Source: Bryobacterales bacterium (GTDB taxonomy: Bacteria > Acidobacteriota > Terriglobia > Bryobacterales > Bryobacteraceae). Taken from it: a stretch of DNA of 64,000 nt. The stretch covers positions 1 through 64,000 of the forward strand of contig PMUP01000074.1 in NCBI GenBank assembly GCA_003166865.1, written 5' to 3'. Position numbers and translations under genes: made by a program. The notes beneath the pieces are model-generated. The model was not told where the DNA came from, did not search any database, and saw only the letters and a list, made by a program, of their open reading frames with translations. Within the stretch, counting starts at the first letter, position 1. Every line of letters starts with the position of its first letter. Positions 15,377 to 35,414 of this stretch are shown one piece after another.

Positions 15377-17333
<1,957 letters not shown>

Positions 17334-17432
17334 ACACGCCACATGCGATAGGCAGCACGTAAGTTATGGGGCGCAGCTCGTTCATTCTCGTGCACGCTCG
17401 ATCACCGAAAATCACCGGCTTTCCCGGCGGAC

Positions 17433-17454
17433 GCTGCCTAAAAACTGCCTTTTT
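17433..17454 (+). repeat. Integrase arm-site candidate, left
   Basis: The 22-base stretch beginning GCTGCCTAAAAACTGCC matches 36927-36948 with one mismatch (A/G at position 9). It contains a half-repeat, CTGCCT twice at 11-base spacing. It lies 100 bases inside attL, just beyond the 3' end of the integrase gene. One copy inside each element end is what arm-type binding sites of a tyrosine integrase would look like. Confidence 0.6.
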
Positions 17455-17468
17455 CAATTCGCCAGTTC

Positions 17469-18620
17469 TCATTGGATCGAGCCCGCGCTCGTGGCCTTCG
17501 CTGTCGTTGGCTTCGGCTTCGCAGTGAGATACTCCTCGTACCGCACCATGGCCGCGTCCTTGTGCTCCTGCTGTGGGTGAACGTACCGCATCACCATTCG
17601 AAGCCCCGCATGCCCCAGGATCGCGGCGAGAGCAGGCAGGTTGCAGCCGGCATCGACCATCCGAGTGGCGAAGGTGTGGCGCAGATCGTACAGCACGAAT
17701 TCGAGCACCGGCGCCCGAAGATAAGCGCACTTCTTGTCTTTGTGCTCCGAACGCATCCGGCCGCACGTCGTACACGGATTGACCGTGTCGAGCACCTTCT
17801 CGTGGCTACCGTTGAGCTTCGAGAGGCGGGTTCCCGGCTTCTTGCCCTTGAACACCCATGTTCCGCCGTCGAGCCGTCTTCCCAGAATTGCCCGGCTTTC
17901 GGCTGTGAGCTTCAGGTCGCGCCTGGCGGCTGTCGTCTTGCCTGCGCGGATGTGGAGTACGGCCTTTGAGAGATCGATATCGGCCTGCCGAAGGGACATC
18001 AACTCATCCGGCCGGCACCCTTGATTCAACATCAGCCGGCCGAGGTCATACAGGCTCGGGAAGTGTTGCGCGGCGTCGAAGTACTTCAGCTCTTCGGGGG
18101 TGGTGATCACCCGGATTCGGGTCGCTTCGGCATCGCTGGGAACTTCGGCCTTACGAACCGGGTTATCCCTGCACCAGTTGTGCTTCACTGCGTACTGGAA
18201 GAATTTCGAAAGGGCGTGCAGATCGTGACGGATCGTGATATCTCGGACTTGGTGTTCGCGCCGGCGCCACGAGGCGTAATCATCAACGTGGCCCTCGGAA
18301 ATCGTGTGCAGCATCCGACCCTTGAAGTAGACATCCAGGCTCGCGAAACTTGTTCGCAGACGACGCGCTGTAGCTGGGTGATCACGATGTTTTCCGTCTG
18401 CCCACTCAAGGAACGCTTCTGAGGCCTCATTGAACGATCGAACCTCCAGCTTCAGCAGTTCGGCTTTGCCATCCACCACCAGGCGATGTGATGAGGCCTC
18501 GACCCGCGCGGCCTTCGTCCTGTTTTGTTCGGTGGCGTCCAAATCGGTTGGACCGAAGTACTTTCGGCCCGCTACCTGGAATCGCCAGTGCCATTTCCCG
18601 CCTTGTTCTCTGAGTGGCAA
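17469..18620 (-). CDS. int: Tyrosine integrase of the tRNA-Cys element
   Basis: 383 residues from TTG 18620. The catalytic domain carries Arg in LNQGCRPDELMSLR, Lys in the beta-hairpin region near HIRAGKTTAARRDL, the box VLYDLRHTFATRMV, LGHAGLRMVMRYVHP with the C-terminal His and the nucleophile Tyr. The N-terminal part (GGKWHWRFQVAGRKY) and the central arm-binding/core-binding segment are intact. An insert with four cysteines (CTTCGRM...KKCAY, about 290-308) between the catalytic Arg and HxxR is unusual and may bind zinc. It catalyses integration into and excision from tRNA-Cys. It overlaps the upstream excisionase-like ORF by 194 bases. Confidence 0.93.
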   Translation of the reverse strand: MPLREQGGKWHWRFQVAGRKYFGPTDLDATEQNRTKAARVEASSHRLVVDGKAELLKLEVRSFNEASEAFLEWADGKHRDHPATARRLRTSFASLDVYFKGRMLHTISEGHVDDYASWRRREHQVRDITIRHDLHALSKFFQYAVKHNWCRDNPVRKAEVPSDAEATRIRVITTPEELKYFDAAQHFPSLYDLGRLMLNQGCRPDELMSLRQADIDLSKAVLHIRAGKTTAARRDLKLTAESRAILGRRLDGGTWVFKGKKPGTRLSKLNGSHEKVLDTVNPCTTCGRMRSEHKDKKCAYLRAPVLEFVLYDLRHTFATRMVDAGCNLPALAAILGHAGLRMVMRYVHPQQEHKDAAMVRYEEYLTAKPKPTTAKATSAGSIQ

Positions 18621-18798
18621 CTTTGAGGCCCTCCATCCATGCTTCGAACTCCACCACCGGGTACCAGATTTTCCGTCCGACCTTCAGCCAGCCTGGACCA
18701 TCGCCGCGGCTGCGCCAGTTCGCCAGCGTCGCCGTGCCAATGCCCGTGATGGCGCTGACTTGTTCCGGGCTGTAGAGCGTCGCGGACGTGTATCCCAT
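18427..18798 (-). CDS. xis: Excisionase/MerR-like HTH protein
   Basis: The open frame from ATG 18798 encodes 123 residues. Residues 7-60 (YSPEQVSAITGIGTATLANW, then GPGWLKVGRKIWYPVVEFEAWM) are a compact excisionase-type helix-turn-helix with wing. The remaining half reads through the start of int in another frame and looks non-conserved, so the original gene may have ended near residue 70 and lost its stop. It presumably bends att DNA and controls the direction of recombination. It follows the nuclease gene by 5 bases and precedes int: nuclease-xis-int form one operon. Confidence 0.75.
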   Translation of the reverse strand: MGYTSATLYSPEQVSAITGIGTATLANWRSRGDGPGWLKVGRKIWYPVVEFEAWMEGLKVATQRTRREMALAIPGSGPKVLRSNRFGRHRTKQDEGRAGRGLITSPGGGWQSRTAEAGGSIVQ

Positions 18799-18803
18799 CG
18801 ATG

Positions 18804-19124
18804 CTATCGCGCTTGTGCGGCGGCCGTCCTTTCCTGTGAAGTGGCCGGTAGTTCCCGAACATCCGGCTCGCGCTTGCCGTCGATGTAGCGGTGCACAAGC
18901 TTGCGACAGTTTGCCGGCGCCGGAAACGCCCTCAGGCTGTCCATCTCGGAAGTGCCCGGCCAGTCGCGGGTCTTTACCTGCACCAGCACCACGTCCACGG
19001 CACGGATGCCGATGATGTCCCACTCGCCCAAGCTGGCGGCAGATCGTGAGCACTTGTACCCGGCCGCTCCGAGAAGGGCCATGGATCGATGCTCGTTTCG
19101 CGTGCCTTTGCGCTTGGCGTTCAA
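18804..19124 (-). CDS. Hjc-like Holliday-junction resolvase / PD-(D/E)XK nuclease
   Basis: 106 residues. The first 60 match the archaeal-type resolvase pattern: KGTRNEHRSMALLGAAGYKC (catalytic Glu), SAASLGEWDIIGI (Asp) and VLVQVKTRDWPG (the (E/Q)xK motif with Gln). Such enzymes resolve branched replication or recombination intermediates. The C-terminal 40 residues are low in conservation. Its place between the primase/helicase and xis suggests a role in element replication. Glu at the last motif is replaced by Gln, which is tolerated in some family members. Confidence 0.75.
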   Translation of the reverse strand: MNAKRKGTRNEHRSMALLGAAGYKCSRSAASLGEWDIIGIRAVDVVLVQVKTRDWPGTSEMDSLRAFPAPANCRKLVHRYIDGKREPDVRELPATSQERTAAAQAR

Positions 19125-19177
19125 TTCAAAACACCCCGTTCGAAAAAACTGGTCCTGTTGTTATCGAAAGCCACCAG

Positions 19178-19197
19178 CACCCCCGTTACTCGGGGTG
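19178..19197. other. Stem-loop beside the short tandem repeats
   Basis: Arms CACCCC (19178-19183) and GGGGTG (19192-19197) enclose an 8-base loop, followed on the plus strand by TGGTTTTCTT. All nearby genes run on the minus strand, so it is unlikely to be their terminator. It lies 44 bases from the iteron-like array and may belong to the same replication or control region. Confidence 0.4.
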
Positions 19198-19240
19198 TGG
19201 TTTTCTTCAGGGGGATTGTTAAGGGGGAGAATTGTACGGG

Positions 19241-19327
19241 GTATACAGTGCCGTATAGAGTAGTACAGTCCGTACACTCCATACACTCGCGTACAGTGCG
19301 TACACCCCGTACAGTCGCGTACAGTTG
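19241..19327. repeat. Iteron-like array: nine degenerate copies of GTACAGTCC
   Basis: Nine head-to-tail units of 9-12 bases begin at 19241, 19253, 19263, 19272, 19281, 19291, 19300, 19309 and 19319. Most read GTACAG/C followed by T or C and two or three C/G; two are degenerate (GTATACAG, GTATAGAG). The roughly helical spacing and the place directly at the 3' end of the primase/helicase gene and before the nuclease gene fit binding sites for a replication initiator, i.e. a candidate origin. A spurious 70-codon frame crosses it. An operator array is the alternative. Confidence 0.65.
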
Positions 19328-19329
19328 GT

Positions 19330-21126
19330 TCATCGAACGATCTCCCAGCGCTTGTCCTTGCCCTTGATGGCCTTCCCTCGCAATTCGAGTCGAAGGAGTG
19401 CCTGCCAGACGCTACCAAACGTCCTGCGAAGGGCAGTAGCGATCGTCGCCGGTTTTGTCGCCCCTTGTGCCTGAAGATAGGCAATGACCTCGGCCATTGT
19501 TTCTCCGATCGTGGCATCGTCGCCCGTTCCATCCACGGTCCAGCCCCATCCAAGTTCATCTCCAGCGTGCCATTCGAGGCTGTAATCTTCCTGCTGAACG
19601 AGCCGGCCCACCACCGTCAACTTTCCCTCTTTGGCGCTGGTGCGTTTAAGCTCGATCGCTGCGTCGGCGGCCGCGGAGATACCGGATGTTCCTATCAGAT
19701 TCTCGATCGGATTCCCGCCCCTGGCGCCCTTCTTCGTGTGCATCACGATCACCGCGGCGCAGTTGTTGGCCATTGCTATTTTTCGGACCCGGTCGATCAC
19801 GTCGTAGTCAGATTGCGATATGTCCCGGTTGCGATTCCCGCCACCGCCAGTCAGCTTAAAAAGGCTGTCGAGAATTATCAGCCCGGAAGGTTGCCGCGTG
19901 AGGGCATCGTTTAGGATCTGATCCCCGCCGGCCAAAACCGGTCGTGGAAGTTCTTCGTACAGCATCAGGTCGCGCAAACTATCGGGGCGTTCTCTTCCCA
20001 GCAACTTGCCGATCTTGTCTTTGGTCAATACTGTCTGATCTTCCAGCGCCCAAAGTTGCACGCGGCATCGCTCCTTCACCTTCAGCCAGCCACCCAATGG
20101 ATTGCCTGTAATCAGTGCCAATGCAAGCTGGCATGCCAACCAACTTTTACCGTCTTTGGGGCGGCCGCCGAGCAACACAAGGCCACCCTTCGGTATGAGT
20201 CCCTCCACCAGCAGATCTGGGATACACACAGAACTATCAGACATGACGTCCTCCATCGACCTACAGCTCACGCCGATCACTTGGGTGCCCGGCTTGTGTT
20301 CGCTACTGGCCTGCTTAGTAGCTTTCTGAGTCTGTTTTCGGAGTAGATCAAGAACCCTTTCGTGACCGTGCGTCCCAATCAGGTCATCAATTCCATTCAC
20401 GCCCGGCGGTGTGTCTGCCGGCCAGGTGAACCAGAAAACTTCCGCCCCACGCTTGCGCAGCTCGCTGGTGAGGGTGAAGCGCGCCGCCCGCACGCTTTCG
20501 TTGTCTGACACGTTCCTATCGAAAACGATTGTGACTTTTCTTCGTTTCCACGTGACGCGCTCAACGTCCGTTATCACGCCTTTGACATCGCGGCGATCGC
20601 CATCAGGCCCGGGCGCCTTTCCGGTGGTTCCACGAAAATTCCAGACGCCGGAAAGCCCGATCGAAAGCCAGCGTGGACGCTCGGCCGCTTCGCCAAGATC
20701 GCTCCAACTCAGACCACATAGCGCCAGGGTCTTCTTTTCGCCTTCGGTAATGAAAGCCGGAAGGCCCGCGTCTTCGATCCAGCCGGCCTCGGTGCCGGGG
20801 ACGAGATACAGCATGTTCCCGCGGCCAGGCGGGGAAATGTATTTGTCCCGCTCCTTGAAGCCTCCATCTGCTTTTTGCTCAAGCTCGGGTTTGTCACGGC
20901 GTAGCCTGTAGTCGCGAACATGGTTTTCCCCCGGCCAAACGTATGGGAACAGAACACCGCTATAGTCCGCGCTTCCATTGCGCCCGACGATTTCGGCACC
21001 TTCGCGCGAGTCAACCCGCCGCAACATGGCGGACTCAGCTAGCTCCCGAGAGATGCCACACTTGGCAAGTTTGTCGAGATCGGCTGGCAGTAGGACGGCG
21101 CCGCGCAAGTTTGGAACGGTGCTCAT
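19330..21126 (-). CDS. Primase/helicase: DUF3854 (TOPRIM-like) fused to RepA-type AAA ATPase
   Basis: 598 residues from ATG 21126; the frame is open to 21327 but the extra residues are not protein-like. Residues 50-250 form a DUF3854/TOPRIM-like domain with FITEGEKKTLAL (about 126-137) and VTIVFDRNVSDNESV (about 198-212), where the Glu and Asp would bind metal. Residues 300-500 are a RecA-fold ATPase: Walker A LLGGRPKDGKSW (318-329), Walker B GLIILDS (415-421), then VIVMHTKKGARGG. A C-terminal winged-helix-like part (TIATALRRTFGSVWQALLRL) closes it. This primase-helicase layout is typical of satellites and prophages and probably initiates element replication at the adjacent repeats. Confidence 0.85.
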   Translation of the reverse strand: MSTVPNLRGAVLLPADLDKLAKCGISRELAESAMLRRVDSREGAEIVGRNGSADYSGVLFPYVWPGENHVRDYRLRRDKPELEQKADGGFKERDKYISPPGRGNMLYLVPGTEAGWIEDAGLPAFITEGEKKTLALCGLSWSDLGEAAERPRWLSIGLSGVWNFRGTTGKAPGPDGDRRDVKGVITDVERVTWKRRKVTIVFDRNVSDNESVRAARFTLTSELRKRGAEVFWFTWPADTPPGVNGIDDLIGTHGHERVLDLLRKQTQKATKQASSEHKPGTQVIGVSCRSMEDVMSDSSVCIPDLLVEGLIPKGGLVLLGGRPKDGKSWLACQLALALITGNPLGGWLKVKERCRVQLWALEDQTVLTKDKIGKLLGRERPDSLRDLMLYEELPRPVLAGGDQILNDALTRQPSGLIILDSLFKLTGGGGNRNRDISQSDYDVIDRVRKIAMANNCAAVIVMHTKKGARGGNPIENLIGTSGISAAADAAIELKRTSAKEGKLTVVGRLVQQEDYSLEWHAGDELGWGWTVDGTGDDATIGETMAEVIAYLQAQGATKPATIATALRRTFGSVWQALLRLELRGKAIKGKDKRWEIVR

Positions 21127-21292
21127 CCGCGGGGTTGTCCTAGCCGACGAAGCGCAGCCAGAAAGGCGAGCCGCAACCAGCGATACGCCGTACGGCCAAG
21201 CCAAAGGGAACATCGCCCGAGAAGGTCCCCGCGATGTGAAAATACGTAGTCGAACTCCTGGTAAACATCGTCCAGCGGGGCTGACCGGAGCT

Positions 21293-21484
21293 TCATTGCG
21301 CACTGCCCCTGGACCGGATGTACTCATCCAAATCGCGTGCAGCGATTCGAATCTGGCGGCCGAAACGGTGGGTCTTCAGTCGCCCGGCCCGGATCTCCGC
21401 ATCAACGACGGCGACGGAAACTCTTAGGACTTTGCCGGTTTCCTTGCGGGTGTGAAAAATGGGTGGATCAGTTTGTTCAACCAT
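21293..21484 (-). CDS. Small HTH protein (excisionase/AlpA family)
   Basis: 63 residues from ATG 21484; a weaker start lies three codons upstream. The pattern TRKETGKVLRVSVAVVDAEI, then LKTHRFGRQIRIAARDLDEYI is an HTH_17-type DNA-binding domain ending RSRGSAQ. In phage satellites an AlpA-like protein upstream of the primase gene drives element genes; here it precedes the primase/helicase by 166 bases on the same strand. That regulatory role is an analogy, not shown. Confidence 0.7.
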   Translation of the reverse strand: MVEQTDPPIFHTRKETGKVLRVSVAVVDAEIRAGRLKTHRFGRQIRIAARDLDEYIRSRGSAQ

Positions 21485-21661
21485 ACAACCCAAGTCTGAA
21501 TAGCGAAGAATTGCGGTTCAAGAAGGAATTCAGTTCTGGGCGCGGATCGCGAATCTAAGTAGCTGAAGCGCGGGAAGATACGGCCAGGCCATAGAATGCC
21601 AGTGAAGACGTAACCTTGTTCGCGAAGTTGCGAGGAGTTGCGAAGAATTAGCAGCGAAGAA

Positions 21662-22477
21662 TTATTGCTCGCGCCGAACCATCTTCAGGCTGCTAGCGAT
21701 TTGATCGGCCACCAGCTTCTTGGAAAAGCAGAAGGCCTCCGTCCAACTGTTGACAGTGACGCCTTTGAGGGCTTCTGGTTTACCTAGTGTCCAAGAAATC
21801 AGCACATCGATCTTCTCTTCATCCAAATTCTTGCAGATCCGAGTAAGGATCTCATCGTGGCGCCAGTTTGGCCGGGCTCTCCAATCCTTGTCGTGAGCCT
21901 CCACGATGCCTGCGATTTTCCGGTGGTGGTCCATCAAGGGATCTTGTCCTCTGCGCTTGCGGATAGGGGCAGGGCCCGCCGCGACGGGCTCCGTGTCGCT
22001 TCGGCCGCCGGTAGCGACCTGAGACACTGGCGGCCCTTCTTCTATCACCCACCATGCTGGTGGGCAAGCGCCCATCTGATCGAGTCGCCGCCCGGCGGAG
22101 ACGTCACCTGACATCCGCAAAAACTCTTTTTTGCGATCCCGCATCTGTTTCTCGGCCGCTTGATCCCCTCTCTCGACAAACCGGGTAATGTACTCGTCGC
22201 AATGTTGAGCCGAAAGCAGGATGCAGAACGACATGAAGCGAGCGTCAGGATGCGTGCTCTCTTTACGAATTGAGTCTAGCCAGACATCAACAGCCTGATC
22301 GGGATAATCGAAAGTTCGTCCCAGCACTGCTATCGTTTGTCTCACGAGCCGCTGGAAGGCTCGCACCAGCGCTTTTTCCATGCCAGGGGAGCCGCTTCCT
22401 AGCAAGTGCCATGCTGGTTCGTAATCAGCGGATTGGTTGACTTCCGCTACCGTTTGCTCTTCTGCTGATTCCGGCAT
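21662..22477 (-). CDS. Hypothetical element protein
   Basis: 271 residues from ATG 22477, chosen because AGGGG lies 6 bases upstream; longer frames reach 22510. No family recognised. The N-terminal 150 residues are helical (MEKALVRAFQRLVRQTIAVL, YPDQAVDVWLDSIRKES), a Pro/Gly linker follows, and the C-terminal part (DDWRARPNWRHDEILTRICK-like text, VDVLISWTLGKPEALKG) is again helical. First gene of the leftward early operon, next to the palindrome region, so it may act in regulation or replication. No Walker or metal motif seen. Confidence 0.6.
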   Translation of the reverse strand: MPESAEEQTVAEVNQSADYEPAWHLLGSGSPGMEKALVRAFQRLVRQTIAVLGRTFDYPDQAVDVWLDSIRKESTHPDARFMSFCILLSAQHCDEYITRFVERGDQAAEKQMRDRKKEFLRMSGDVSAGRRLDQMGACPPAWWVIEEGPPVSQVATGGRSDTEPVAAGPAPIRKRRGQDPLMDHHRKIAGIVEAHDKDWRARPNWRHDEILTRICKNLDEEKIDVLISWTLGKPEALKGVTVNSWTEAFCFSKKLVADQIASSLKMVRREQ

Positions 22478-22661
22478 TCGCTTTCCCCTCATGCGATCCC
22501 GTTCCCTCAAGGTGAGGGAGCCGCCAGCGGAGGGATACCCGCTTGTCGCCTGGCCTGGCTAGGCGGCCACAAACAGGGTAGCCACAAAAACACGCGAGCG
22601 CAATCATGTTTAGGGCCAAAAGTACTAGCGGGACCGAAGGGCGGCGCTCGTTTCGTCTTCC

Positions 22662-22691
22662 CTCAAATGATGCGCTGGCGCATCATTTGAG
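22662..22691. promoter_or_regulatory. Perfect 14-bp inverted repeat, operator candidate
   Basis: Arms CTCAAATGATGCGC (22662-22675) and GCGCATCATTTGAG (22678-22691) are separated by TG. It lies in the 420-base space between the leftward early operon and the rightward HTH/virion operon. Such symmetry suits a dimeric repressor; the Cro-like protein at 22899 and the HTH protein at 21293 are candidates. It also overlaps the end of a possible 39-codon minus-strand ORF. Confidence 0.7.
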
Positions 22692-22802
22692 CTGCCCCGT
22701 ATTCCCCCACAGCTCCCTAAACGCAGTCACCGCTTCCTGCTCGGACAAATACGCCGTCAACGGCGCATTTGACATCAGGGATGTGTAGGCTACCAACCCC
22801 AT
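22683..22802 (-). CDS. Possible 39-residue peptide in the control region
   Basis: An ATG-started frame of 39 codons that ends inside the palindrome. The text SEQEAVTAFRELWGNTGQLK looks protein-like and helix-forming with no rare runs, unlike the shadow frames around. A purine-rich GGGGGTGAGG lies just upstream of the ATG; an internal ATG ten codons in is an alternative start. No homologue recognised. If real it would be the first product leftwards from the control region. Evidence is weak. Confidence 0.35.
   Translation of the reverse strand: MGLVAYTSLMSNAPLTAYLSEQEAVTAFRELWGNTGQLK
22747..22770. promoter_or_regulatory. Second inverted repeat overlapping a possible -35 element
   Basis: Arms AAATACGCCG (22747-22756) and CGGCGCATTT (22761-22770), one mismatch, 4-base spacer. 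The right arm runs into TTGACA (22769-22774), a consensus -35 hexamer pointing towards the HTH gene at 22899, although no clear -10 follows at 17 bases. It shares GGCGCAT with the perfect palindrome 70 bases to the left, so one regulator may bind both. Confidence 0.5.
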
Positions 22803-22898
22803 TACCTCACCCCCGAGTCGTTTCCTCGATCGCGCCGGCGCGCTTCAAAAAATCAGCAAAACAATTACAGACAGACGCTTTGGGGCTACGCTTCTTGC

Positions 22899-23180
22899 AT
22901 GACGCCAACAGTTGACGAACATGCAACACGGTTCAATCTGCGGTCTAACCGGGCGGCGCTGGGCCTGTCGCAAAGCAAGCTGGCGCGAGAGTCCGGTGTG
23001 CCGAGATTCAAAATAAACACCACCGAGCTCGGGGGTGCGCAACTCACGCACGAACAGGAAACGCTAGTCCGGGCTGCGCTTGAGCGGGAAGCACGGCGGC
23101 TCGCGGCCGCCGCATCCAGCTTCCACACGGAGAGCGCCCGTGGTAGCGCAGCCACCATGGAGAACGGAGCGTACGTCTAA
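22899..23180 (+). CDS. XRE/Cro-like regulator of the element
   Basis: 93 residues, ATG start. Residues 12-45 (LRSNRAALGLSQSKLARESG, then VPRFKINTTELGG) are a lambda-Cro type helix-turn-helix. The C-terminal 35 residues are Ala/Glu-rich with no peptidase or dimer domain. First gene of the rightward operon, facing the early operon across the palindrome region, so a role in switching between maintenance and late expression is likely. Its stop and the next start overlap (TAATG). Confidence 0.75.
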   Translation: MTPTVDEHATRFNLRSNRAALGLSQSKLARESGVPRFKINTTELGGAQLTHEQETLVRAALEREARRLAAAASSFHTESARGSAATMENGAYV

Positions 23181-24997
23181 TGGGCGCACTAGGAGCGGCA
23201 ATCTCAGCACAAGCTAACTTGTCCAACCTCAAGGTTGAGAACCCGATGACGCAGTATGCGCAGTATCAGCAAGCGCAATCCGCGCAAGCCGACGCCGCAC
23301 TTCGGCAACAGCAGGCTCAGACCCAGCAGCAGTTGACCCAGCAGGAACAAATCAAAGTCCAGGAGATGCAACAGCAGCAGCAATCCCAGGATGCTTTGAA
23401 GCGAGCTTACATGGAAGTCTACGCCGGCGGCGCCACTGCACCGCAAGCTGTACCGCAAGCCAATTCACAAGCTGTGCCGCAGGGCCGAGAACTGACCTCC
23501 GGTCAATCGGGCGGAGCACTGGCACCCGGGATGGTTGGCGTTCCGGGGTCGGCTCTAGCTCCGCAGGTCGCTCCGCAGGGCGCTCCGCAGGGTGGTCCAC
23601 AAGGTGGTCCGGTTGGACAGCTTCCTCAATCCCAGTCGGATGCGGTAGCAAGGCTCGCGCTGAAATATGGCGCGACGCCGGGCGCGGTGCAAACCTTTCA
23701 GACTGCACAGTTGGCGTACCACAAGTCCCTCACCGATTCCAGCAAAGACGACCTGGACCTTCAAGACAAGCACTCCGCGGAAGCATTGAACATTTTCGGC
23801 CCGCTCGCGCAGCTACCGCCGGCTCAGCTAGCCCAGCAGTGGAACCCGGCGATGTCGTTGGTCCTGAAGCGCGGCGATGTTAGCACGGACGATCTTGCGA
23901 AAATTGGCATTGATCCCAGCACAGTGCCCGATGCGCAGCACCTTCAGTTTCTGGTGAGTATGCTCAACGGCCATCAGAACGATGTCAACCAGGAACAGAA
24001 AAACCGCGAAATCGCGGCCAAAGAGACCGAAGCGAATACCGGCGCTACCAAGGAAGCCGCGGAGCAGCCGGGCCAAGCGGCCGCATCCGACATTGCGGTG
24101 AGCAAGTCAAACGCTGTCAAAGGGTGGCAGCAGAATCCCCAGAATCTCCTGTCCACGGTGGACAATATTTTCCCACCTCAGGTCCCTGGCAACGCGATCC
24201 GCAATGGCAATTACAAGAGCATGCTTAGGTTCGCGATAGGTCAAGGCGACTTCGACGGTGTGAATAAAATCATGGAGAAGGCGAACGATGAAGCCGGGGA
24301 TATTGCGAAACAGACCAATCCCCTGGTGCAGCAAGGCAAGATCGCTGTGTCGGCCGCCGAAGGCAAAGCGCACGCCGCCGCCACCATAGCTGCCCAGCAG
24401 GCGCAGTATGCCGGTACGCCCATGGCCAACGTGCCGCCGCATTTAGTGCAGGCGGCCGCCACCGACTACAAGAAGGCCACAGACGACCACGATGGGGCAG
24501 TGCAGGCAGCCGACGACATGCAGACGTTCACCAACCTTGCCCGGCAGGGAAACAAGATTGCCTACGCCTACTCGCCGGTAGAGGGCGTCCTGACCCTAAA
24601 TACCGGCCGTGGCGTGAAGCGCGTCAACATGAGCGAAATAGAAGCCTACGGCGGCGCCGGTTCGGCCATGGATCGGGTGAAGGGGTGGCTGGGCAAGCAA
24701 ACCTCTGGTGCGTCAATCCCGGCGTCTGTGTTGAATGATATGGACACGCTGCACCAGGCTATCCGGGGGAACGCCGACAATCTCTATGCAAACAAGGTCG
24801 ATTCCACCAACAAGACTTTTGGATCAAACTTCCAACCGATCGTGCGGCCCAAGGCGCAACAAAGCGCAGGTGGGGCCACTGTCCCACCGAACGTGAAAAC
24901 GTTGCTTTCCCAGCCAAATGTCACTCCTGGAGTGCACAAGCTTAGTGATGGAACGAGCTGGATGAAGGACGCGGACGGCAGCATCACCAAGCAATAA
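23180..24997 (+). CDS. Large Gln/Ala-rich protein, probable virion-internal or ejection protein
   Basis: 605 residues. Residues 20-80 are extremely Gln-rich and likely coiled coil. A Pro/Gly/Gln linker follows (about 90-150), then a long helical body with many Ala, Gln, Asp and Asn. The end, about 540-605, contains GVHKLSDGTSWMKDADGSIT, a short beta motif common at the ends of phage structural proteins. No enzyme motif. The composition and place next to terminase genes resemble internal virion or DNA-ejection proteins of short-tailed phages. Read from composition and context only. Confidence 0.55.
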   Translation: MGALGAAISAQANLSNLKVENPMTQYAQYQQAQSAQADAALRQQQAQTQQQLTQQEQIKVQEMQQQQQSQDALKRAYMEVYAGGATAPQAVPQANSQAVPQGRELTSGQSGGALAPGMVGVPGSALAPQVAPQGAPQGGPQGGPVGQLPQSQSDAVARLALKYGATPGAVQTFQTAQLAYHKSLTDSSKDDLDLQDKHSAEALNIFGPLAQLPPAQLAQQWNPAMSLVLKRGDVSTDDLAKIGIDPSTVPDAQHLQFLVSMLNGHQNDVNQEQKNREIAAKETEANTGATKEAAEQPGQAAASDIAVSKSNAVKGWQQNPQNLLSTVDNIFPPQVPGNAIRNGNYKSMLRFAIGQGDFDGVNKIMEKANDEAGDIAKQTNPLVQQGKIAVSAAEGKAHAAATIAAQQAQYAGTPMANVPPHLVQAAATDYKKATDDHDGAVQAADDMQTFTNLARQGNKIAYAYSPVEGVLTLNTGRGVKRVNMSEIEAYGGAGSAMDRVKGWLGKQTSGASIPASVLNDMDTLHQAIRGNADNLYANKVDSTNKTFGSNFQPIVRPKAQQSAGGATVPPNVKTLLSQPNVTPGVHKLSDGTSWMKDADGSITKQ

Positions 24998-24998
24998 C

Positions 24999-26510
24999 AT
25001 GGGAAGCCCTCTATCAATCGTCGATTCGCAGCCTCTTCCGGCTCAGCCGCCCAACGGTTCTACCGGTGGTCTGCAAATCGTGGAGAGCAAGCCATTGGGA
25101 GCATCCAATGCAACTGAGCCGGAGAGCTTCTGGCAGGGTGTTGGCAAGAACCTGAACCCGATCCCGCTGCTCAAGACGATTTACGATGCAGCTAACGACG
25201 CCCAGACCGAACATCCCATAGCCAGCATGCTCCTGGGTCCGCAGACCACGGTCTACGAGCTCGGCAAGAAGGTACTCCCAGGCTTGATTCAGGCTCATAA
25301 AGAGCAGTGGGACAAGGCCACGCAAGCCTACAGCGAAGGGCGGTACAGCGAAGCCGCGGGACACCTGTTGGCGACGGCGTTGCCTGGTATTGGGCCAGCT
25401 GCAGCGAATGCAGGTGAAACCATTGGATCGGGTAACATCGCGGGTGGGTTGGGCGAAGCGGCCGGACTCGTAGCGCCCTTCGTCGCCGGACCGGCAGTAA
25501 AATCCGTCGCACAAGCCGCCGGCATTCCCGAGGCGCTGGGGGGCTCAGCCGAAAAACAGTACTCATCCGCCCTCAACGCGACGACGAAGGGAAACAAGGC
25601 CCTAAGCGCGGACATTACGCCTCAGCTGATTGATCGGCGCGTAACGGGCAGCGTGAAATCCATACAAGCGCAAGCCGCATCGAAACTAGCCGACGTGGGC
25701 CAGCAGCTCTCCGATGCATACCAGGATCTTCCAGCGGGTGCATCCATCCCGCTAGCGGACGTGCAGGCCAAAATCAGCCAAGCCGCCAACGATGCTTTCA
25801 CGGTTCCAACCAAAACCGGCCCGGTTTCGGCGAGTCCCGTTGCGGATGCCGGATTGAATCATGCGGCCGAACTCAACAATCGCCTGTTGGCAGCATCCGA
25901 TGTTGATCAAACGACCGGTGAGCGAACCATTTCGGTAGACACGGCACGGCGGTTGCGGCAGTACTACGATAGCGTGGCAGCTCAAGCCGGCCGCTATAAC
26001 GGAACGGCGCTGGCTGATCAGAGCGCGGCGGCTGCACACGGGCAAGCAGCGGATGCGATCCGCTCCCAGCTAGCGAGCGACTTTCCCGACATTGCGAAAA
26101 TCAACAAGGAATACAGCTTTTGGTCCGATGTTAATCAGGTCACCTCGGACACGCTCTTGCGACGGCAGGGGCAAGCCAGTTCACCGCTGAGCGTTCATCT
26201 GGCTCGTGGCGCTGGCCAAGTTGCCGGAGCAGCGGTAGGAGGACCGGTGGGCGCCGTGACTGGAGGCGTCCTAGCGAATACGCTGCAAAAGCTGTTCAAC
26301 GGCGGAAGCTGGAAGACAACCAGCGCGGTCTTGAAGGATCGATTGGCGGATGCCCTGGCCTCCGGGAACCAGGGCGCTATAGGCTTCTATGCGACGCAAG
26401 CGATGCGGGCCAGTGGCGCGCTCTCTTCTGGAGCTCCAGCCACAGCGATGCCGGGAACCACTCTGCCGATGGCTGCGAGTAACAATCAACCGCAGCCGAT
26501 GGCGCAGTAG
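24999..26510 (+). CDS. Ala/Gly-rich helical protein, probable virion-internal protein
   Basis: 503 residues, ATG one base after the previous stop. Long amphipathic Ala-rich helices alternate with glycine-zipper-like stretches (GLGEAAGLVAPFVAGPAV, GQVAGAAVGGPVGAVTGGVL) that could insert into a membrane. The region 300-380 (TARRLRQYYDSVAAQAGRYN, LASDFPDIAKINKEYSFW) resembles phage internal proteins I have seen next to ejection proteins. No catalytic motif recognised. Partner of the preceding gene, probably in the same particle or ejection complex. Function inferred. Confidence 0.5.
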   Translation: MGSPLSIVDSQPLPAQPPNGSTGGLQIVESKPLGASNATEPESFWQGVGKNLNPIPLLKTIYDAANDAQTEHPIASMLLGPQTTVYELGKKVLPGLIQAHKEQWDKATQAYSEGRYSEAAGHLLATALPGIGPAAANAGETIGSGNIAGGLGEAAGLVAPFVAGPAVKSVAQAAGIPEALGGSAEKQYSSALNATTKGNKALSADITPQLIDRRVTGSVKSIQAQAASKLADVGQQLSDAYQDLPAGASIPLADVQAKISQAANDAFTVPTKTGPVSASPVADAGLNHAAELNNRLLAASDVDQTTGERTISVDTARRLRQYYDSVAAQAGRYNGTALADQSAAAAHGQAADAIRSQLASDFPDIAKINKEYSFWSDVNQVTSDTLLRRQGQASSPLSVHLARGAGQVAGAAVGGPVGAVTGGVLANTLQKLFNGGSWKTTSAVLKDRLADALASGNQGAIGFYATQAMRASGALSSGAPATAMPGTTLPMAASNNQPQPMAQ

Positions 26511-26530
26511 AGCACTGAGGATTTCTCACC

Positions 26531-27031
26531 ATGGATGACAAAGTGAAGCAGATCGCAGACGAAGAGCAAAAACGCGCGCCATTTGGATTTGGGGCGGTGA
26601 TAAGGGGCATCGGCGAGCTGAGGGGGCCGTTTACCCGGCCAGTCGAGCACGCCACGCCGGCTGATCCAGCTTTGAGTGCGGAGACGCTGAATGCCGAGGG
26701 TTTGAAGCGCCTCGCCGCAACCGCGTCGCCTGACGTTGAGATACTCAGGTCCGGACTGCGATCCCGCAAACTTGCCGAGAGGCTCGATGCCGCCATGTGG
26801 GTTGCACGGTTCGATGATAAGCCGGGGTTTGAATTTCTTCGACCATTGCGCACCCGCGCCGCCGGGATAGTTGCCGACGCAATGAGTTTCCGAACCGAGC
26901 CCGTGTTGTCAACCGCGGCGGCCCATGAGATCGACACTGAGTTGCTCCAGCTTCTTTATGAGCGCTCGGGGACCGGGTTTCTTACCGCCGTCGAACAAGT
27001 TGAGAGAAAAGCACGCCATTGGGTCAATTGA
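26531..27031 (+). CDS. Hypothetical protein upstream of the terminase genes
   Basis: 166 residues, ATG start. Predominantly helical and charged (LRSRKLAERLDAAMWVARFD, AAHEIDTELLQLLYERSG), no cysteine pairs or nucleotide motif. It lies between the virion-like proteins and the terminase pair in a run of overlapping or adjacent genes; its stop overlaps the next start (TGATG). A small head-completion, lysis or packaging-accessory role is possible, but nothing in the sequence selects one. Confidence 0.55.
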   Translation: MDDKVKQIADEEQKRAPFGFGAVIRGIGELRGPFTRPVEHATPADPALSAETLNAEGLKRLAATASPDVEILRSGLRSRKLAERLDAAMWVARFDDKPGFEFLRPLRTRAAGIVADAMSFRTEPVLSTAAAHEIDTELLQLLYERSGTGFLTAVEQVERKARHWVN

Positions 27032-27360
27032 TGGCTCGCAAGGCCGGTTCTGCCCGATTGGCCGGAGGCCAGTCTTCGGCCTTGGGGAGACCACCCAAGC
27101 TCCAGTTCGTGCAGCTTGAAGGCGCAACAGCAGTAAACGACGCCTTTGACCGCATGGACGCTTCGGTGTGGCTGTCACTATATGCGTCCACCAACACATC
27201 GAGACCCGCACGCCGAAGCCGTAAAAAGCGGCGCGGTCCAAGAATAAGGCACGGCGGGCGACCCCAAGGAATCAAATCCTTGCCACTTAAACTCAGGGAT
27301 TCACGCGTCGCTGGTGACCGGGTGACACTGGACATCCTCCGGGCAGGAACGACAGCGTGA
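27031..27360 (+). CDS. Small basic hypothetical protein
   Basis: 109 residues from ATG 27031, overlapping the previous stop and ending in a GTGA overlap with the terminase small subunit gene. The N-terminus MARKAGSARLAGGQSSALG and the central RPARRSRKKRRGPR are strongly basic, so nucleic-acid contact is possible. No family recognised. The tight overlaps on both sides support it as a real gene, although the composition is atypical. Confidence 0.5.
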   Translation: MARKAGSARLAGGQSSALGRPPKLQFVQLEGATAVNDAFDRMDASVWLSLYASTNTSRPARRSRKKRRGPRIRHGGRPQGIKSLPLKLRDSRVAGDRVTLDILRAGTTA

Positions 27361-27806
27361 AACGTGAAGTTAAGGGCGCTAGTAGTACCAAGCCGAATTC
27401 AGAGCAGCCGGATACCGGCAAGCTCAACAAAACTCTACACTTAAAAAGGGACGGAAGCATTTCAGCGGCATCGAAGGCGGCATTTCTGGCCGCTTTCTCA
27501 AGGTGTGCGAGCGTGACCGCATCAGCGAAGCGCGTCAGGCTCGATCGCTCGAATCACTACCAATGGATGCGTGATGATCCGACCTACGCAAAAGCGTTTG
27601 AAGCTACCCGCACCGAAGCGGCAGACGCGCTGGAAGACGAGGCTTCGCGCCGCGCCTTCGCGGGAAGCGATGTGCTGCTCATATTCTTGCTCAAAGGATT
27701 GAAGCCTGAGAAGTACCGCGAAAGAACCGAAGTTCAGCTGAAGGATTCCGAGGGCTTGCTCCAGCGCCTGGCGGAAGGTCGCAGGCGCGCCGCGGCGCGG
27801 GAGTAA
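27357..27806 (+). CDS. terS: Terminase small subunit-like protein
   Basis: 149 residues from GTG 27357. Residues 35-75 (AASKAAFLAAFSRCASVTAS, RVRLDRSNHYQWMRDDPTYA) form a helix-turn-helix of the kind found in small terminases, where it recognises the packaging site. The downstream helix (AADALEDEASRRAFAGSD) and the end KPEKYRERTEVQLKDSEG are also usual for the family. It ends 3 bases before the large subunit gene, the normal pairing. DNA recognition for packaging is inferred from family and context. Confidence 0.8.
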   Translation: MKREVKGASSTKPNSEQPDTGKLNKTLHLKRDGSISAASKAAFLAAFSRCASVTASAKRVRLDRSNHYQWMRDDPTYAKAFEATRTEAADALEDEASRRAFAGSDVLLIFLLKGLKPEKYRERTEVQLKDSEGLLQRLAEGRRRAAARE

Positions 27807-27809
27807 GCG

Positions 27810-29285
27810 ATGCCGGCCGCAAATGTCGATCTGGAACTTGCTGAAGCGGTAGCCCAGTATTACGACGATCCCTTCGGCTTCGTCCTCTTCGCGTATCCGT
27901 GGGGCCAACCAGGGCCGCTAGAGGGCGAGACGGGGCCCGATGAGAACCAGGCAGAGTTTCTCCGATCGCTCGGCGAAGAAGTGAAGGCTCGCCGGTTCGA
28001 TGGCAAGACGCCGTGCATGCCCATTCGCATGGCGGAAAGTTCAGGCCACGGTACCGGCAAGAGCGCAATGGGCGCCTGGATTGCCGACTGGATCTTGAGC
28101 ACGCGGCCGAATTCGATCGGAACGGTTACGGCCGGAACAGCAACGCAGCTTGAGGAGCGCACCTGGGCAGCCATACAGTACTGGACCCGGCTGTGCATCA
28201 CAGCACACTGGTTTGAGATTATGGCCGGCGGCATCTACGCCAAGATCAACCCAGACGCGTGGAAGTTGGTTTCCCAAACCTGCAAAGAAGAAAACGCACA
28301 ATCCTTCGCGGGCCAGCATGCGCGAACCTCGACCAGCTGGTACCTCTTCGACGAGGCCAGCACTGTGCCGGATGCCATCTGGCGGGTTGCCTTCGGTGGA
28401 CTGACAGACGGGGAACCGATGTTCTTCGCCTGGGGCCAGCCCGAGCGAAACACCGGGCAGTTCTACGAAGTGTGTTTTGGCAGAGAGCGAGACAGATGGA
28501 ATCACCGCAATGTTGACAGCCGGAATTCGCGCTTCACGAACAAGCAGCTAATTCAGGAATGGCTTAGAGACTACGGCGAGGATAGCGATTGGTGCAGGGT
28601 TCGTATCTTTGGCTTACCGCCGCGGGCTTCTGAGCTGCAATTCATCGACAAGGAGCGCATCGAAGAAGCTCGGAAGCGCCGCGTGGAAGTGCTGGATGGT
28701 GAACCGCTGATCTGTGGCGTGGATGTCTCAGGTGGTGGTGCAGCTTGGAACATTCTACGTTTCCGTCGCGGGTTGGACGCCCGCAGTATCCCGGCGATCC
28801 GCATTCCTGGTGAGCACGGCCGCGACCGTGAGCTCATGGTCGCCAAATGCGCTGAGGTGCTGTCCGACAAAGAACTAGACGTGCGCATGATGTTTATTGA
28901 TGCAGCCTTTGGCGCGGTGATCGTTGAGCGGCTGAAAATGCTGGGCTATCGCAACGTGATGGAGGTGAACTTCGGCGGCGAATCGCCGAATGTGCATCAG
29001 CTGAACAAACGCGCTTACATGTACAACCTGATGAAAGACTGGCTGGTCAAGGGATCGATCGACGAGGACGAGCGGCTCGCGGTTGACCTGGCGACGCCGG
29101 GCTATAAGATAAACCATTCCGGCAAGCTGGTGATCGAATCGAAGGAAGAGCTGGTGAAACGGCTGGGACGCAGCCCGGATGACGGCGATGCGCTGGCGCT
29201 CACTTTCGCGCATCCGGTCGCGCTGCAACTGCCCAAGCCGAAGGTCAGGCGAAATCTCGATAATTTATACCCCTTCATGCAGTGA
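27810..29285 (+). CDS. terL: Terminase large subunit
   Basis: 491 residues. The ATPase domain has Walker A ESSGHGTGKS (about 76-85), Walker B SWYLFDEAS (about 176-184) and the coupling region FAWGQPERNTG. The nuclease domain has ICGVDVSGGG (Asp 305), MMFIDAAFGA (Asp about 363) and DDGDALALTFAHP near the C-terminus, the three acidic positions of an RNase H-like nuclease. It cuts concatemers and pumps DNA into a prohead. All key residues are present, so it looks intact although no prohead genes are recognisable in the element. Confidence 0.92.
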   Translation: MPAANVDLELAEAVAQYYDDPFGFVLFAYPWGQPGPLEGETGPDENQAEFLRSLGEEVKARRFDGKTPCMPIRMAESSGHGTGKSAMGAWIADWILSTRPNSIGTVTAGTATQLEERTWAAIQYWTRLCITAHWFEIMAGGIYAKINPDAWKLVSQTCKEENAQSFAGQHARTSTSWYLFDEASTVPDAIWRVAFGGLTDGEPMFFAWGQPERNTGQFYEVCFGRERDRWNHRNVDSRNSRFTNKQLIQEWLRDYGEDSDWCRVRIFGLPPRASELQFIDKERIEEARKRRVEVLDGEPLICGVDVSGGGAAWNILRFRRGLDARSIPAIRIPGEHGRDRELMVAKCAEVLSDKELDVRMMFIDAAFGAVIVERLKMLGYRNVMEVNFGGESPNVHQLNKRAYMYNLMKDWLVKGSIDEDERLAVDLATPGYKINHSGKLVIESKEELVKRLGRSPDDGDALALTFAHPVALQLPKPKVRRNLDNLYPFMQ

Positions 29286-29297
29286 AAGGAGACCGCT

Positions 29298-29543
29298 ATG
29301 ATCATGGGAACTGACGAGCCGCGCGAGATCGGCAAGACGTACACCAGGCCGCTCCATATCGATGGCGTTTTGTACCCGGATCAGCCAGTCTTTATTATTC
29401 GGGAAGTCCCATTCGAAGAATGGAGAAAGGGCATAGAGCAATGTCCACTTGACCCCGTGGAGGCTCGCGCTGTGGCCCTGGGGGACCACGCGCGGCGCCC
29501 GGTTGGGCCGAAAATCTGGTGGTACGAGGTTTCCACCGACTGA
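29298..29543 (+). CDS. Small hypothetical protein after terL
   Basis: 81 residues; ATG 29298 is preceded by GGAG at good distance. The text EIGKTYTRPLHIDGVLYPDQ, then VFIIREVPFEEWRKGIEQCP suggests a small alpha/beta fold. No family recognised. It sits 12 bases after terL and 5 bases before the NinB-like gene, in the same operon. Confidence 0.6.
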   Translation: MIMGTDEPREIGKTYTRPLHIDGVLYPDQPVFIIREVPFEEWRKGIEQCPLDPVEARAVALGDHARRPVGPKIWWYEVSTD

Positions 29544-29548
29544 TCGAC

Positions 29549-29950
29549 GTGTCACAGCCCGCCCCAATTTTCCGAGGGACGGTGGAGAAGGGCAAGCTTA
29601 GCCTCGACTCACCGGGCGCGTTCCAAGCGACAGTGGCCCGGCTGGAAGGCAAACAGATTGCGCTTCGGCTCACAAAGCACCACCACAGCCGCTCGCTCAG
29701 CCAGAATGCCTACTACTGGGGCGTCGTCATTCCGCTGCTCGCCGAATCTTGCGGATACGAAGACGAGGAGATGCACGACGCGCTGAAGCATCGGTTTCTT
29801 CGCGATCGAGCGAACGAGAAGGGCGGGCTCGTGCTGGTTAAATCGAGCGCGGCATTGAACACGCGGGACTTTACGGAGTACATCGAGCAATGCCGCCGGC
29901 TTGGCGCCGAAATGGGCGTGGCGATACCGGACCCGGGTGGGCTGGAGTGA
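29549..29950 (+). CDS. ninB: NinB-like recombination protein
   Basis: 133 residues from GTG 29549; an earlier GTG at 29519 overlaps the previous gene. The signature RSLSQNAYYWGVVIPLLAES followed by YEDEEMHDALKHRFL and SAALNTRDFTEYIEQCRRLG matches the NinB family of lambdoid phages, small single-stranded-DNA-binding proteins that promote recombination. It is normally an early-region gene, so its place after terL is unusual. It is the last plus-strand gene before the minus-strand cargo block. Confidence 0.82.
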   Translation: MSQPAPIFRGTVEKGKLSLDSPGAFQATVARLEGKQIALRLTKHHHSRSLSQNAYYWGVVIPLLAESCGYEDEEMHDALKHRFLRDRANEKGGLVLVKSSAALNTRDFTEYIEQCRRLGAEMGVAIPDPGGLE

Positions 29951-29963
29951 TATTATTCGCGCT

Positions 29964-30254
29964 TCAGCGCAGCTTCTTCGTAATCCGTGTAGCTAGATGC
30001 CCTGCCCTGATTCCTGCTCGGAGAGCGTTGGTTGACGTGCGAACGTGATCCCTGGCTTCTCTTCGCTGTCTACGCTGCTCAATAATGGCCTCCTTGCTTG
30101 AAAACCCTGCTGCCATAAGAGCTTCGATAGACATGACCTGAACGGAAGGATTTTTTCGCTGGTGATACACATAGATCGCCAATGGAATCCAAACTGGAGA
30201 TCCGAAGACGATTACATACAACAGGATCACGAAAGCAGATTCTACTCCCTTCAT
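29964..30254 (-). CDS. Small membrane protein, cargo block
   Basis: 96 residues. One strongly hydrophobic segment (FVILLYVIVFGSPVWIPLAI) near the N-terminus, then a basic cytoplasmic tail with SIEALMAAGFSSKEAII and RRQRREARDH. A single-pass membrane protein of unknown role. It runs against the direction of the terminase operon and lies 8 bases downstream of the YbjN-like gene, so the two are probably co-transcribed. Confidence 0.6.
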   Translation of the reverse strand: MKGVESAFVILLYVIVFGSPVWIPLAIYVYHQRKNPSVQVMSIEALMAAGFSSKEAIIEQRRQRREARDHVRTSTNALRAGIRAGHLATRITKKLR

Positions 30255-30262
30255 CGCCCGGT

Positions 30263-30793
30263 CTACTTTGGGGCATCTTTGGGTTTATTGTCGATGACAA
30301 AGCGCGCCCACCGTGCCACCGTGTCTCTGAACGTTGTCACGAACATTTCAACGTTCTCACGTGTCACACCCCCGCTGAGAATTAGATCGTCTTCAATGGT
30401 GGCATCGCCAGCTTTGTCAACGTAGGCCCGTGAAAATCTATTCGTCTCGTTCCACTCATTTACGACCGTGGGGGTGGGAGCTACATCAGTGAAAGCATTG
30501 TATAGCTCAAGGAAACTAGGATCTGGAACGAAGGCTGCCACTTTGTAGCCTTCCGCCCTAAATGTAAAGAACGTCTCATCCTTGCCGTTTGCATCCTTGC
30601 CCCGCGTACACTCAAATCCCATTCCCTGCACAATTCTTTGGAACACTTCCAACGTCATACTCGTGACAATCGTGCTGTCCGTCGTTTTGGTAATGCCCTC
30701 CGCTGCTGGATTGGCGTTGGGAGTTTTGGGGGTCTGTTGCGCAAGTGCGGAGCACCCACATGCAAGGACAATGGTTGCGATTTGCTTTTTCAC
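30263..30793 (-). CDS. Secreted YbjN-like domain protein
   Basis: 176 residues from GTG 30793 with a signal peptide (VKKQIATIVLACGCSALAQQ). Residues 45-160 have the YbjN layout: LEVFQRIVQGMGFECTRGKD, FFTFRAEGYKVAAFVPDPSF, LYNAFTDVAPTPTVVNEWN, RFSRAYVDKAGDATIEDDL and LSGGVTRENVEMFVTTF. YbjN proteins are type III secretion chaperone-like folds; in most cases the role is unknown. An exported version carried by a phage-like element suggests a host-envelope effect expressed from the integrated state. Confidence 0.75.
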   Translation of the reverse strand: MKKQIATIVLACGCSALAQQTPKTPNANPAAEGITKTTDSTIVTSMTLEVFQRIVQGMGFECTRGKDANGKDETFFTFRAEGYKVAAFVPDPSFLELYNAFTDVAPTPTVVNEWNETNRFSRAYVDKAGDATIEDDLILSGGVTRENVEMFVTTFRDTVARWARFVIDNKPKDAPK

Positions 30794-30853
30794 GAGCACC
30801 TGAACCGTCCTTTCCTCTAGTCGCCTTCTATATCGCCCCGGTGCGTCCATTCC

Positions 30854-31163
30854 TTTAGTCGACCTTAATGACTCAGTTTGTGACGCTCCTTACCCGAGCA
30901 GATGCCGAAGGCCGTGGCCCTTCAGTGATCCTGAACCGACCGATGGGTCCGAACATTTCGCCGTAGAAACGTTTTAGAGCCCGCTGGCGCGATTTGGGGG
31001 TATCTGAGGTCGACGCCACAACAGAAACAGCTCAGAGGTGCCTTTCCGCGCGAAATCCGGCCACCCTACGCGCTGTTTCGGACCTCATTCTGGCCCTTTG
31101 GGTCGTTCGGGCCAGCCCGTAAAGTACTTGGTGCCGGCGGCCGATCCCGAAAAGGGGTCCATA
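30854..31163. other. 310-base interval without a recognised gene
   Basis: It separates the leftward YbjN gene from the rightward small secreted protein gene, so it should hold divergent promoters. I see no frame with coding character, no clear consensus promoter and no strong hairpin. A structured RNA cannot be excluded. Confidence 0.4.
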
Positions 31164-31448
31164 ATGTCCTTCATTCGCTATTGCGTTGCTGCATTTTTGC
31201 TGGCTTCACCGTGGGCATTGGCAAAGGATGAGCCAAAGACCGACGATGAAATCAAACAGGAACTCATCCGTGAATCGATAGCCGCATACCCGGGAACCTG
31301 TGCATGTCCCTACAACGTGGATCGCGCCGGGCACAATTGCGGACGACGCAGCGCTTATAGCCGTCCCGGCGGCTACGCTCCGCTATGCTATCCCAACGAC
31401 GTCACCAAAGAGATGGTGGAGAAATATAAGAAGCAACACAGCCGGTGA
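31164..31448 (+). CDS. Small secreted cysteine-rich protein
   Basis: 94 residues from ATG 31164, after AAGGGG. Signal peptide FIRYCVAAFLLASPWALA. The mature part ends in a dense conserved-looking block CACPYNVDRAGHNCGRRSAY, then SRPGGYAPLCYPNDVT, with four cysteines. I recall this CPYN...CG.RSAYSRPGG block in small exported proteins of proteobacteria and phages, without a known function. Two disulfides are likely after export. Probable cargo gene. Confidence 0.7.
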   Translation: MSFIRYCVAAFLLASPWALAKDEPKTDDEIKQELIRESIAAYPGTCACPYNVDRAGHNCGRRSAYSRPGGYAPLCYPNDVTKEMVEKYKKQHSR

Positions 31449-31817
31449 ATCTCTAAGCTCACAGGAAACAGCCGGGCGGCAAACCTGCAAAGTAGGTAGA
31501 ATCACGAGCGGGGCGGCATTCTTGGGCGCCCCGGGCCCTGCCGTCGCGCGTGGGTCGGTAGCGGAGCCTGTCAACGCTTCGCTACTTCGTACTGTCGTAT
31601 TGCTTTCCTCCGTTCTTGGATGCCGGCGCCGCCACTCAGCCCGGCACTCCTCAAGGCCCACCACAAAGACTTTCCGCGGCGGCCGGCTAGTTCCCAAAAC
31701 CAACTGGCTAGCAGCGTGGCCTTCCCGGATCAGCTCTGCATCGGACAGCTTGCGGAGATGCGCGCGGATCGCTTCAATGTCGATGTATTGGTCTCCGTCT
31801 TCCCAGGGATCGTGCAC
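31383..31817 (-). CDS. Hypothetical cargo protein
   Basis: 144 residues, ATG start. Only the first 70 residues look like a protein: MHDPWEDGDQYIDIEAIRAH, RKLSDAELIREGHAASQLVL and LEECRAEWRRRHP form three charged helices. The rest is low quality and overlaps the preceding plus-strand gene by 66 bases, so the original stop may have been lost. No family recognised. Confidence 0.5.
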   Translation of the reverse strand: MHDPWEDGDQYIDIEAIRAHLRKLSDAELIREGHAASQLVLGTSRPPRKVFVVGLEECRAEWRRRHPRTEESNTTVRSSEALTGSATDPRATAGPGAPKNAAPLVILPTLQVCRPAVSCELRDSPAVLLLIFLHHLFGDVVGIA

Positions 31818-31887
31818 CAGGGGGATGGTAGCGCGCGGCGTGGAGCTCTTTGGCGAAAAGCGCTCTGCCTCGCGAGTCGGGATGCCC

Positions 31888-32364: not shown

Positions 32365-32542
32365 GATCCAGGCTAGCCACTGTGGCTTCGCGAATGGAAT
32401 GGACCGTTAGGTCTAAAATCTGCTCAACACGCCCTACACCTATTGGTGGTAGAGCCCGACCTCCCTGCCCCCCTCGATGAGCTGGGCATCTTTGATTGAG
32501 AGTTGTGCGCCCGGTTTCAGTTTTGCGCCATAGCCCAATCGC

Positions 32543-32803: not shown

Positions 32804-32974
32804 AAGCCTACCAGCTTAACAACCCACGGCAACACACCCAACCGTACTATACATCCCATGCTTGACTATACCACGGCTACTGGCCCGTCGTACTAGGTAT
32901 GTTTCATGCTTGACTAGCCATTGCTACTGATGCATACTGTTATTGGAAGCAGACAGAAAAGGAAAAGGAACCCA

Positions 32975-33507: not shown

Positions 33508-33509
33508 CC

Positions 33510-34160: not shown

Positions 34161-34162
34161 CT

Positions 34163-35361: not shown

Positions 35362-35414
35362 CGACCCCTTTTCGTAAGCAGTTAGTCAGTCAGCAATCCA
35401 AAGGAGAACCAACC

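Follow-up and report, generated by a model that had tools for sequence, protein, structure and literature searches.

A tandem iteron array directly 3′ of a DUF3854/AAA_25 initiator gene as the probable replication origin of an integrated bacterial element

Beyond a handful of models, replication origins are known for few temperate phages or integrated elements. Here we analysed a 64,000-nt stretch of DNA (the window) from an Acidobacteria-like genome and conclude that nine short tandem repeats directly behind a predicted primase-helicase gene very probably form the iteron origin of a 19.7-kb integrated element, read by a predicted winged helix at the C-terminus of the initiator encoded just upstream. 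Arrays in relatives stand at the same position behind the initiator gene, with a unit that changes along with the C-terminal domain, for which a winged helix is predicted. The initial annotation of this DNA had named the repeats a candidate origin of the element, a proposal that the placement of the arrays and the covariation of unit and C-terminus in relatives now support.

Results

The array comprises nine NTGTACGNN-like direct sites (19240–19325, − strand) on the sense strand of the initiator gene, with the consensus CTGTACGGA; the forward unit given in the initial annotation, GTACAGTCC, is the complement of this unit. The units start at 19324, 19314, 19305, 19296, 19286, 19277, 19268, 19258 and 19248 (− strand), that is, in steps of 10, 9, 9, 10, 9, 9, 10 and 10 bp, with 9 + 9 + 10 giving a 28-bp period, and three of the nine are degenerate (TGTATG, TATACG and TGTATA). 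A single unit in the opposite orientation, TGTACGGGG (19233–19241, + strand), forms an inverted repeat with them, and the whole array thus occupies ~19233–19325, close to the 19241–19327 first assigned to it, while the 9–12 base spacing proposed at that time narrows to the measured 9–10 bp. The first unit lies ~8 bp past the stop of the 665-aa initiator ORF (19330–21327, − strand), and the array is situated between this stop and a 106-aa ORF at 18804–19124 (− strand). The best exact 6-mer occurs in six copies within the 92 bp of the array, while dinucleotide shuffling of the surrounding 600 bp (1000 replicates) never gave more than four copies and 40 shuffled versions of the full 64 kb reached a maximum of five; because these maxima stay below the observed six copies, the array is not given by chance, and the nine repeats first noticed beside the primase/helicase are confirmed, with one inverted unit in addition.

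A small stem-loop nearby, also noticed initially, has seven pairs (19177–19198, + strand) and a T-rich tail on the + strand, where it is terminator-like. The origin layout in the window is one compact array with one inverted unit: neither a second iteron block nor a clear AT-rich spacer or strong AT-rich tract was found there, so that the window lacks the two iteron sets of phage-inducible chromosomal islands (PICI). The GC skew of the element shows no turn at the array; layout and skew both count against the origin reading. No RNA in an Rfam scan overlaps the array. A CRISPR array was also considered and rejected, in line with the first judgement that the repeats are too short and spacerless, since the units measure 9–10 bp and have no spacers, as against CRISPR repeats of >20 bp that alternate with unique spacers of comparable length.

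The array lies in an element of 19,726 bp, bounded by a 54-bp exact direct repeat in tRNA-Cys, of which the attL copy (17280–17333, + strand) falls inside the 3′ part of the tRNA-Cys gene (17254–17328) and the second, exact copy, attR, at 37006–37059 (+ strand). Adjoining attL is a tyrosine integrase (17469–18620, − strand; Phage_integrase, E 2.6e-17; phrog_1). An ORF at 18427–19053 (− strand) has an HTH_17 (AlpA/excisionase-like) domain (E 1.1e-08), and its true start is probably further in. The 106-aa ORF next to the array is a weak PDDEXK/Hjc-like nuclease candidate (PDDEXK_5, E 0.005, sub-threshold by the curated cut-off); the initial placement of the repeats between the primase/helicase stop and the next gene holds, and the label "nuclease" given to that gene is weak. 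Upstream of the initiator lies a second HTH_17 (AlpA/excisionase-type) regulator (21293–21493, − strand; E 1.6e-08; phrog_66). Compared with a PICI, a small integrated element with an integrase, an AlpA-type regulator and a primase or rep gene but an incomplete set of structural genes, the 19.7-kb element has an integrase, HTH_17 regulators, the initiator and a tRNA-Cys attachment site, and it also carries the small and large terminase subunits (27357–29285, 8 kb from the array) and a NinB-like protein.

No portal, capsid or tail family was seen among the element ORFs scanned, and a satellite, a small phage and a reduced prophage were therefore all considered as readings of 17280–37059. The element also contains two large ORFs without an assigned role (23180–24997 and 24999–26510), a YbjN-domain protein (30263–30850, − strand; E 8.8e-15) and, besides the tyrosine integrase, a resolvase-type serine recombinase (34603–35361, + strand). 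A match to the int-alpA RNA (Rfam RF02996, 38.7 bits against a gathering threshold of 35.8) at 22504–22569 (− strand), just upstream of an ORF at 21662–22510 (− strand), fits an island with AlpA-type regulators.

The initiator contains a DUF3854 domain (residues 184–323, E 3.4e-13), a putative primase, followed by an AAA_25 helicase domain (residues 370–535, E 3.2e-22; both Pfam); we found no literature on DUF3854 in replication. Approximately the last 62 residues (19333–19520, − strand) form the proposed iteron reader, which is predicted with good confidence to be a winged helix: the C-terminal 110 aa as modelled by AlphaFold2 (mean pLDDT 84) contain helices at 48–66, 71–78 and 82–94 and a two-strand wing, and winged-helix proteins were the best matches in both profile and fold comparisons, with no Foldseek E-value below 0.0014, in keeping with the small size of the fold. 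Searching viral contigs with the 665-aa protein returned no relatives.

Among 200 genomes of the family, a close homologue of the initiator was found in G034 only (L031/L002; 67–70% identity). The G034 array has the window's unit, steps of 9, 9 and 10 bp and the same place directly past the initiator stop, where the block CTGTACTACTCTATACGGCACTGTATA is unchanged, and the predicted recognition helix is likewise the same in both proteins. A hairpin follows the array in both genomes at the same place but with different sequences, that of the homologue being G/C-rich, and the gene behind the array in G034 differs from the window's next gene. That the array stays beside the initiator while the following gene changes counts for an origin, and it bears directly on the alternative of repeated regulator sites, already raised in the initial annotation. 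In that case an HTH_17 protein, a repressor or a self-repressing initiator would control the next genes through the array as an operator, and the array would have no origin function. Such an operator would suit the next gene (18804–19124), which runs in the same direction and starts ~100 bp after the array; short tandem sites are typical of regulators too, and initiators at iterons often regulate as well. However, the array keeps to the initiator gene where the next gene is swapped, the unit varies in relatives with a C-terminal residue of the initiator itself, no sigma-70-type promoter match was found in the region (weak evidence for this phylum), and the corresponding place in P4 is required for replication, all of which makes the operator reading improbable.

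The same pair of genomes speaks to a coding role of the repeats, which we consider the least credible of the alternatives. A 70-aa ORF (19121–19333, − strand) runs through the repeats and overlaps the initiator stop as ATGA, and both the overlap and the open frame occur in the window and in L031; yet the unit steps of 9, 9 and 10 bp break the frame, the ORF has no family match, and the reading frame through the conserved block differs between the two genomes, which argues against translation of the array.

Across the 200 family genomes, the TGTAC array pattern was found only in the window, at the homologous G034 site (twice, overlapping) and at one further G034 site. The latter, a four-unit TGTAC tandem (C94:7504–7535; L528 ~1501–1532), is intergenic and lies beside a gene unrelated to replication. 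Of the 120 stretches with the pattern among the matches listed in viral contigs, 109 are 9-bp coding repeats within long open frames, and none of those listed encodes an initiator, so that the TGTAC motif alone is not diagnostic.

More distant relatives were covered by 231 non-identical initiator loci that include downstream sequence, taken from the matches listed in whole genomes and in IMG/VR and GTDB contigs. An array was called when the first 250 bp past the initiator stop held five or more copies of one 6-mer. By this measure, 108 of the 231 loci (47%) carry an array past the stop, compared with 2% of control windows: 4 of 208 lying upstream of the initiator ORFs and 82 of 4110 from elsewhere in these loci. 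Part of the 82 may be real arrays. The repeats that the initial annotation would have looked for at the same place in related elements are therefore found, as the same unit in the closest homologue and as other units in these 108. The units vary widely (GGGAACA, GGTACA, GTTACA, GTAACA, CCCGACA, GTGAACAG, GCGTTCAT and others). In an enlarged set of 148 array loci, which are related to each other and whose counts are thus not independent, the trinucleotide TGT/ACA is present in 83 of the 148 consensus sequences against 25 (s.d. 4) expected when letters are shuffled within each consensus, and units occur in both orientations in 145. Opposite blocks separated by a spacer were seen in 130 loci, and in 123 of these the AT content of the spacer exceeds that of the initiator gene (mean 0.58 versus 0.40), a layout that most array loci have and the window does not.

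Near-mirror iteron layouts around a 70–110 bp spacer were observed downstream of VirE-type initiators in L248, L246 and L249–L258; in L248, the steps read 21, 11, 45, 10, 9 on one side of a 73-bp spacer and 10, 9, 44, 11, 21 on the other. Such symmetry would be predicted for a pair of helicase rings assembling head to head.

About half of the 231 broad homologues had no array detected past the stop, which weighs against the origin reading. L059 and L062, both of the AAA_25 type, are among them, and so is a large clade of Rhodobacterales (L265, L274–L280, L289–L294 and similar loci) that retains the C-terminal domain (ERYRRRDE) but had no array within 350 bp of the stop. The origins of these homologues may lie elsewhere, or their units may be too degenerate for the detector. 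A whole-genome profile search with the AAA_25 alignment added almost no new relatives.

Covariation of the unit with the primase C-terminal domain, a check suggested in the initial annotation, was borne out in relatives by partial Mantel tests, a wing-residue rule and contrasts on a core tree. With the helicase core controlled, unit similarity tracks C-terminal similarity in both VirE-type (partial Mantel r 0.24, p 0.0005) and AAA_25-type initiators (r 0.16, p 0.003). The unit also correlates with the core when the C-terminus is controlled (partial r 0.17 and 0.10, respectively), so that part of the covariation signal is shared descent.

Among VirE-type array loci, GGTGAC is the unit of 16 of the 17 with Gln at the last position of the motif W-x-R-Y-[R/Q] and of none of the 42 with another residue there (Fisher p 1.5e-13), a rule found post hoc and in a helicase type other than the window's AAA_25. 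Loci without Gln mostly have GGG units, and the lone Gln exception, L048, combines a divergent motif (EPKQQ) with the unit CGGTACA. In a predicted model of L262, the Gln/Arg residue maps to the first wing strand; a PDB sequence search with the VirE-type C-terminus gave no match. On a VirE-type core tree built without the C-terminus, the residue changes ~7 times and the unit six times, and four independent contrasts on supported branches, too few to reach significance alone, gave three to four concordant and no discordant changes (median p 0.125). The last 500 aa of L266 and L316 are 87% identical, but the two differ in Q/R and in GGTGACA/TTGGGACA, and their C-termini differ at further positions too. 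On these sequence comparisons, the wing residue is the best marker of the unit in VirE-type initiators, though not necessarily its sole cause. The few AAA_25-type data agree, with the helix PAVRMxLKRM accompanying TGTAAC in L055, L058 and L061 and the helix xT[VI]RRLL accompanying [TC]GTTCA[TC] in L050, L052 and L060; L075 is at odds with a simple one-position reading.

That the unit follows the initiator C-terminus in relatives counts for the C-terminal winged helix as the reader, and together with the position of the array behind the initiator it disfavours the repeated regulator sites that had been offered as the other usual explanation. The match between repeat and C-terminus comes from these relatives; for the window itself, a single close homologue shares both helix and unit.

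These data also weigh on whether the array is another cis site (for partition, incompatibility or copy control, or packaging recognition) that merely lies beside the initiator gene. Iteron arrays can serve incompatibility and partition, and the element does carry terminase genes, which would give a packaging site a use. However, those genes are 8 kb off, arrays of different units follow initiator genes across phyla, and in relatives the unit can be predicted from a domain of the initiator itself, so that we rate such a site as very unlikely, below the operator sites.

Discussion

For the window array, we infer binding, helicase loading, melting and origin activity from the comparisons above. 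After excision, the primase-helicase would bind the TGTACG units via its C-terminal winged helix, and several initiator copies would assemble side by side on the array. A hexameric AAA_25 helicase would then form or be loaded, the DNA adjoining the array would be opened, and synthesis would be primed by the fused DUF3854 domain or by a host primase.

Beyond this element, the relatives raise the idea of a general specificity code, in which very many temperate elements would have private iterons directly 3′ of the initiator gene, with units that tend to share a TGT/ACA anchor and neighbouring bases set by a few residues of the C-terminal winged helix; we consider such a code about as likely as not. 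Under this code, a change of one VirE-type wing residue from Arg/Lys to Gln would switch GGG to GGT. If the code is true, the replicons of different elements would stay compatible with one another, and sequence alone would suffice to find origins and pair them with their initiators, including those of the AAA_25/DUF3854 class. The place rule (directly 3′ of the primase-helicase gene) combined with the residue-to-base rule would make origins predictable across phyla and testable at the bench.

Several known systems share parts of this arrangement. RepA of plasmid RSF1010 is an AAA_25/RecA-like helicase. As proposed for the element in the window, RSF1010 has an iteron origin (oriV) with a dedicated helicase and primase (RepA/RepB′/RepC); by contrast, its iterons are bound by a separate protein, RepC, rather than by a helicase domain (PMC4234260). 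Orf904 of pRN1 is a primase-helicase with a C-terminal winged helix and an origin directly 3′ of its gene (PMC4234260), but this origin is a 100-nt stem-loop without iterons and the primase is archaeo-eukaryotic. In SCCmec, the C-terminus of the Cch2 helicase binds AAGTG iterons downstream of its gene (PMC7581432); unlike the window, this system has three 5-nt repeats, another helicase family and a separate primase-polymerase.

The Rep (Pri-Rep) proteins of SaPI and PICI likewise have short iterons directly downstream of the initiator gene (PMC7581432, PMC6092414). A passage of PMC7581432 that cites Ubeda et al. 2007 places the SaPI origin immediately behind rep and describes it as made of iterons that the C-terminal domain recognises, and in Gram-negative PICI an AT-rich region is flanked by two sets of iterons (PMC6092414), whereas the window has one array and one inverted unit. 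The predicted C-terminus of the VirE-type L262 has as its best, weak fold match PriRep1 with dsDNA (7pds; prob 0.94, E 0.13). The window helicase is AAA_25, unlike SaPI/PICI Rep.

The alpha helicase of phage P4 belongs to SF3, and the AAA_25 domain of the window is RecA-like. P4 served as a positive control: the detector used for the relatives also picks up its annotated crr, whose type 1 ori repeats (TGTTCACC) follow the 3′ end of the alpha gene immediately. Alpha is a primase-helicase with a C-terminal winged-helix origin-binding domain (PMC4234260), as predicted for the window's initiator, and the P4 repeats just 3′ of its gene are 8 bp long and required in cis. Unlike the window, P4 has a separate ori at 9.1–9.8 kb and type 2 repeats, and no common sequence family has been demonstrated over the two C-termini; P4 units also start with TGT, and an acidobacterial relative (L052) has CTGTTCACG. 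The arrangement in the window is thus of a known kind, that of P4, SaPI/PICI and SCCmec Cch2, and what is new, as far as the searched literature shows, is the AAA_25/DUF3854 initiator class, the breadth and the residue-to-base rule, by which the logic of SaPI and P4 would extend from satellites to other prophage-like elements and to the AAA_25 helicase class.
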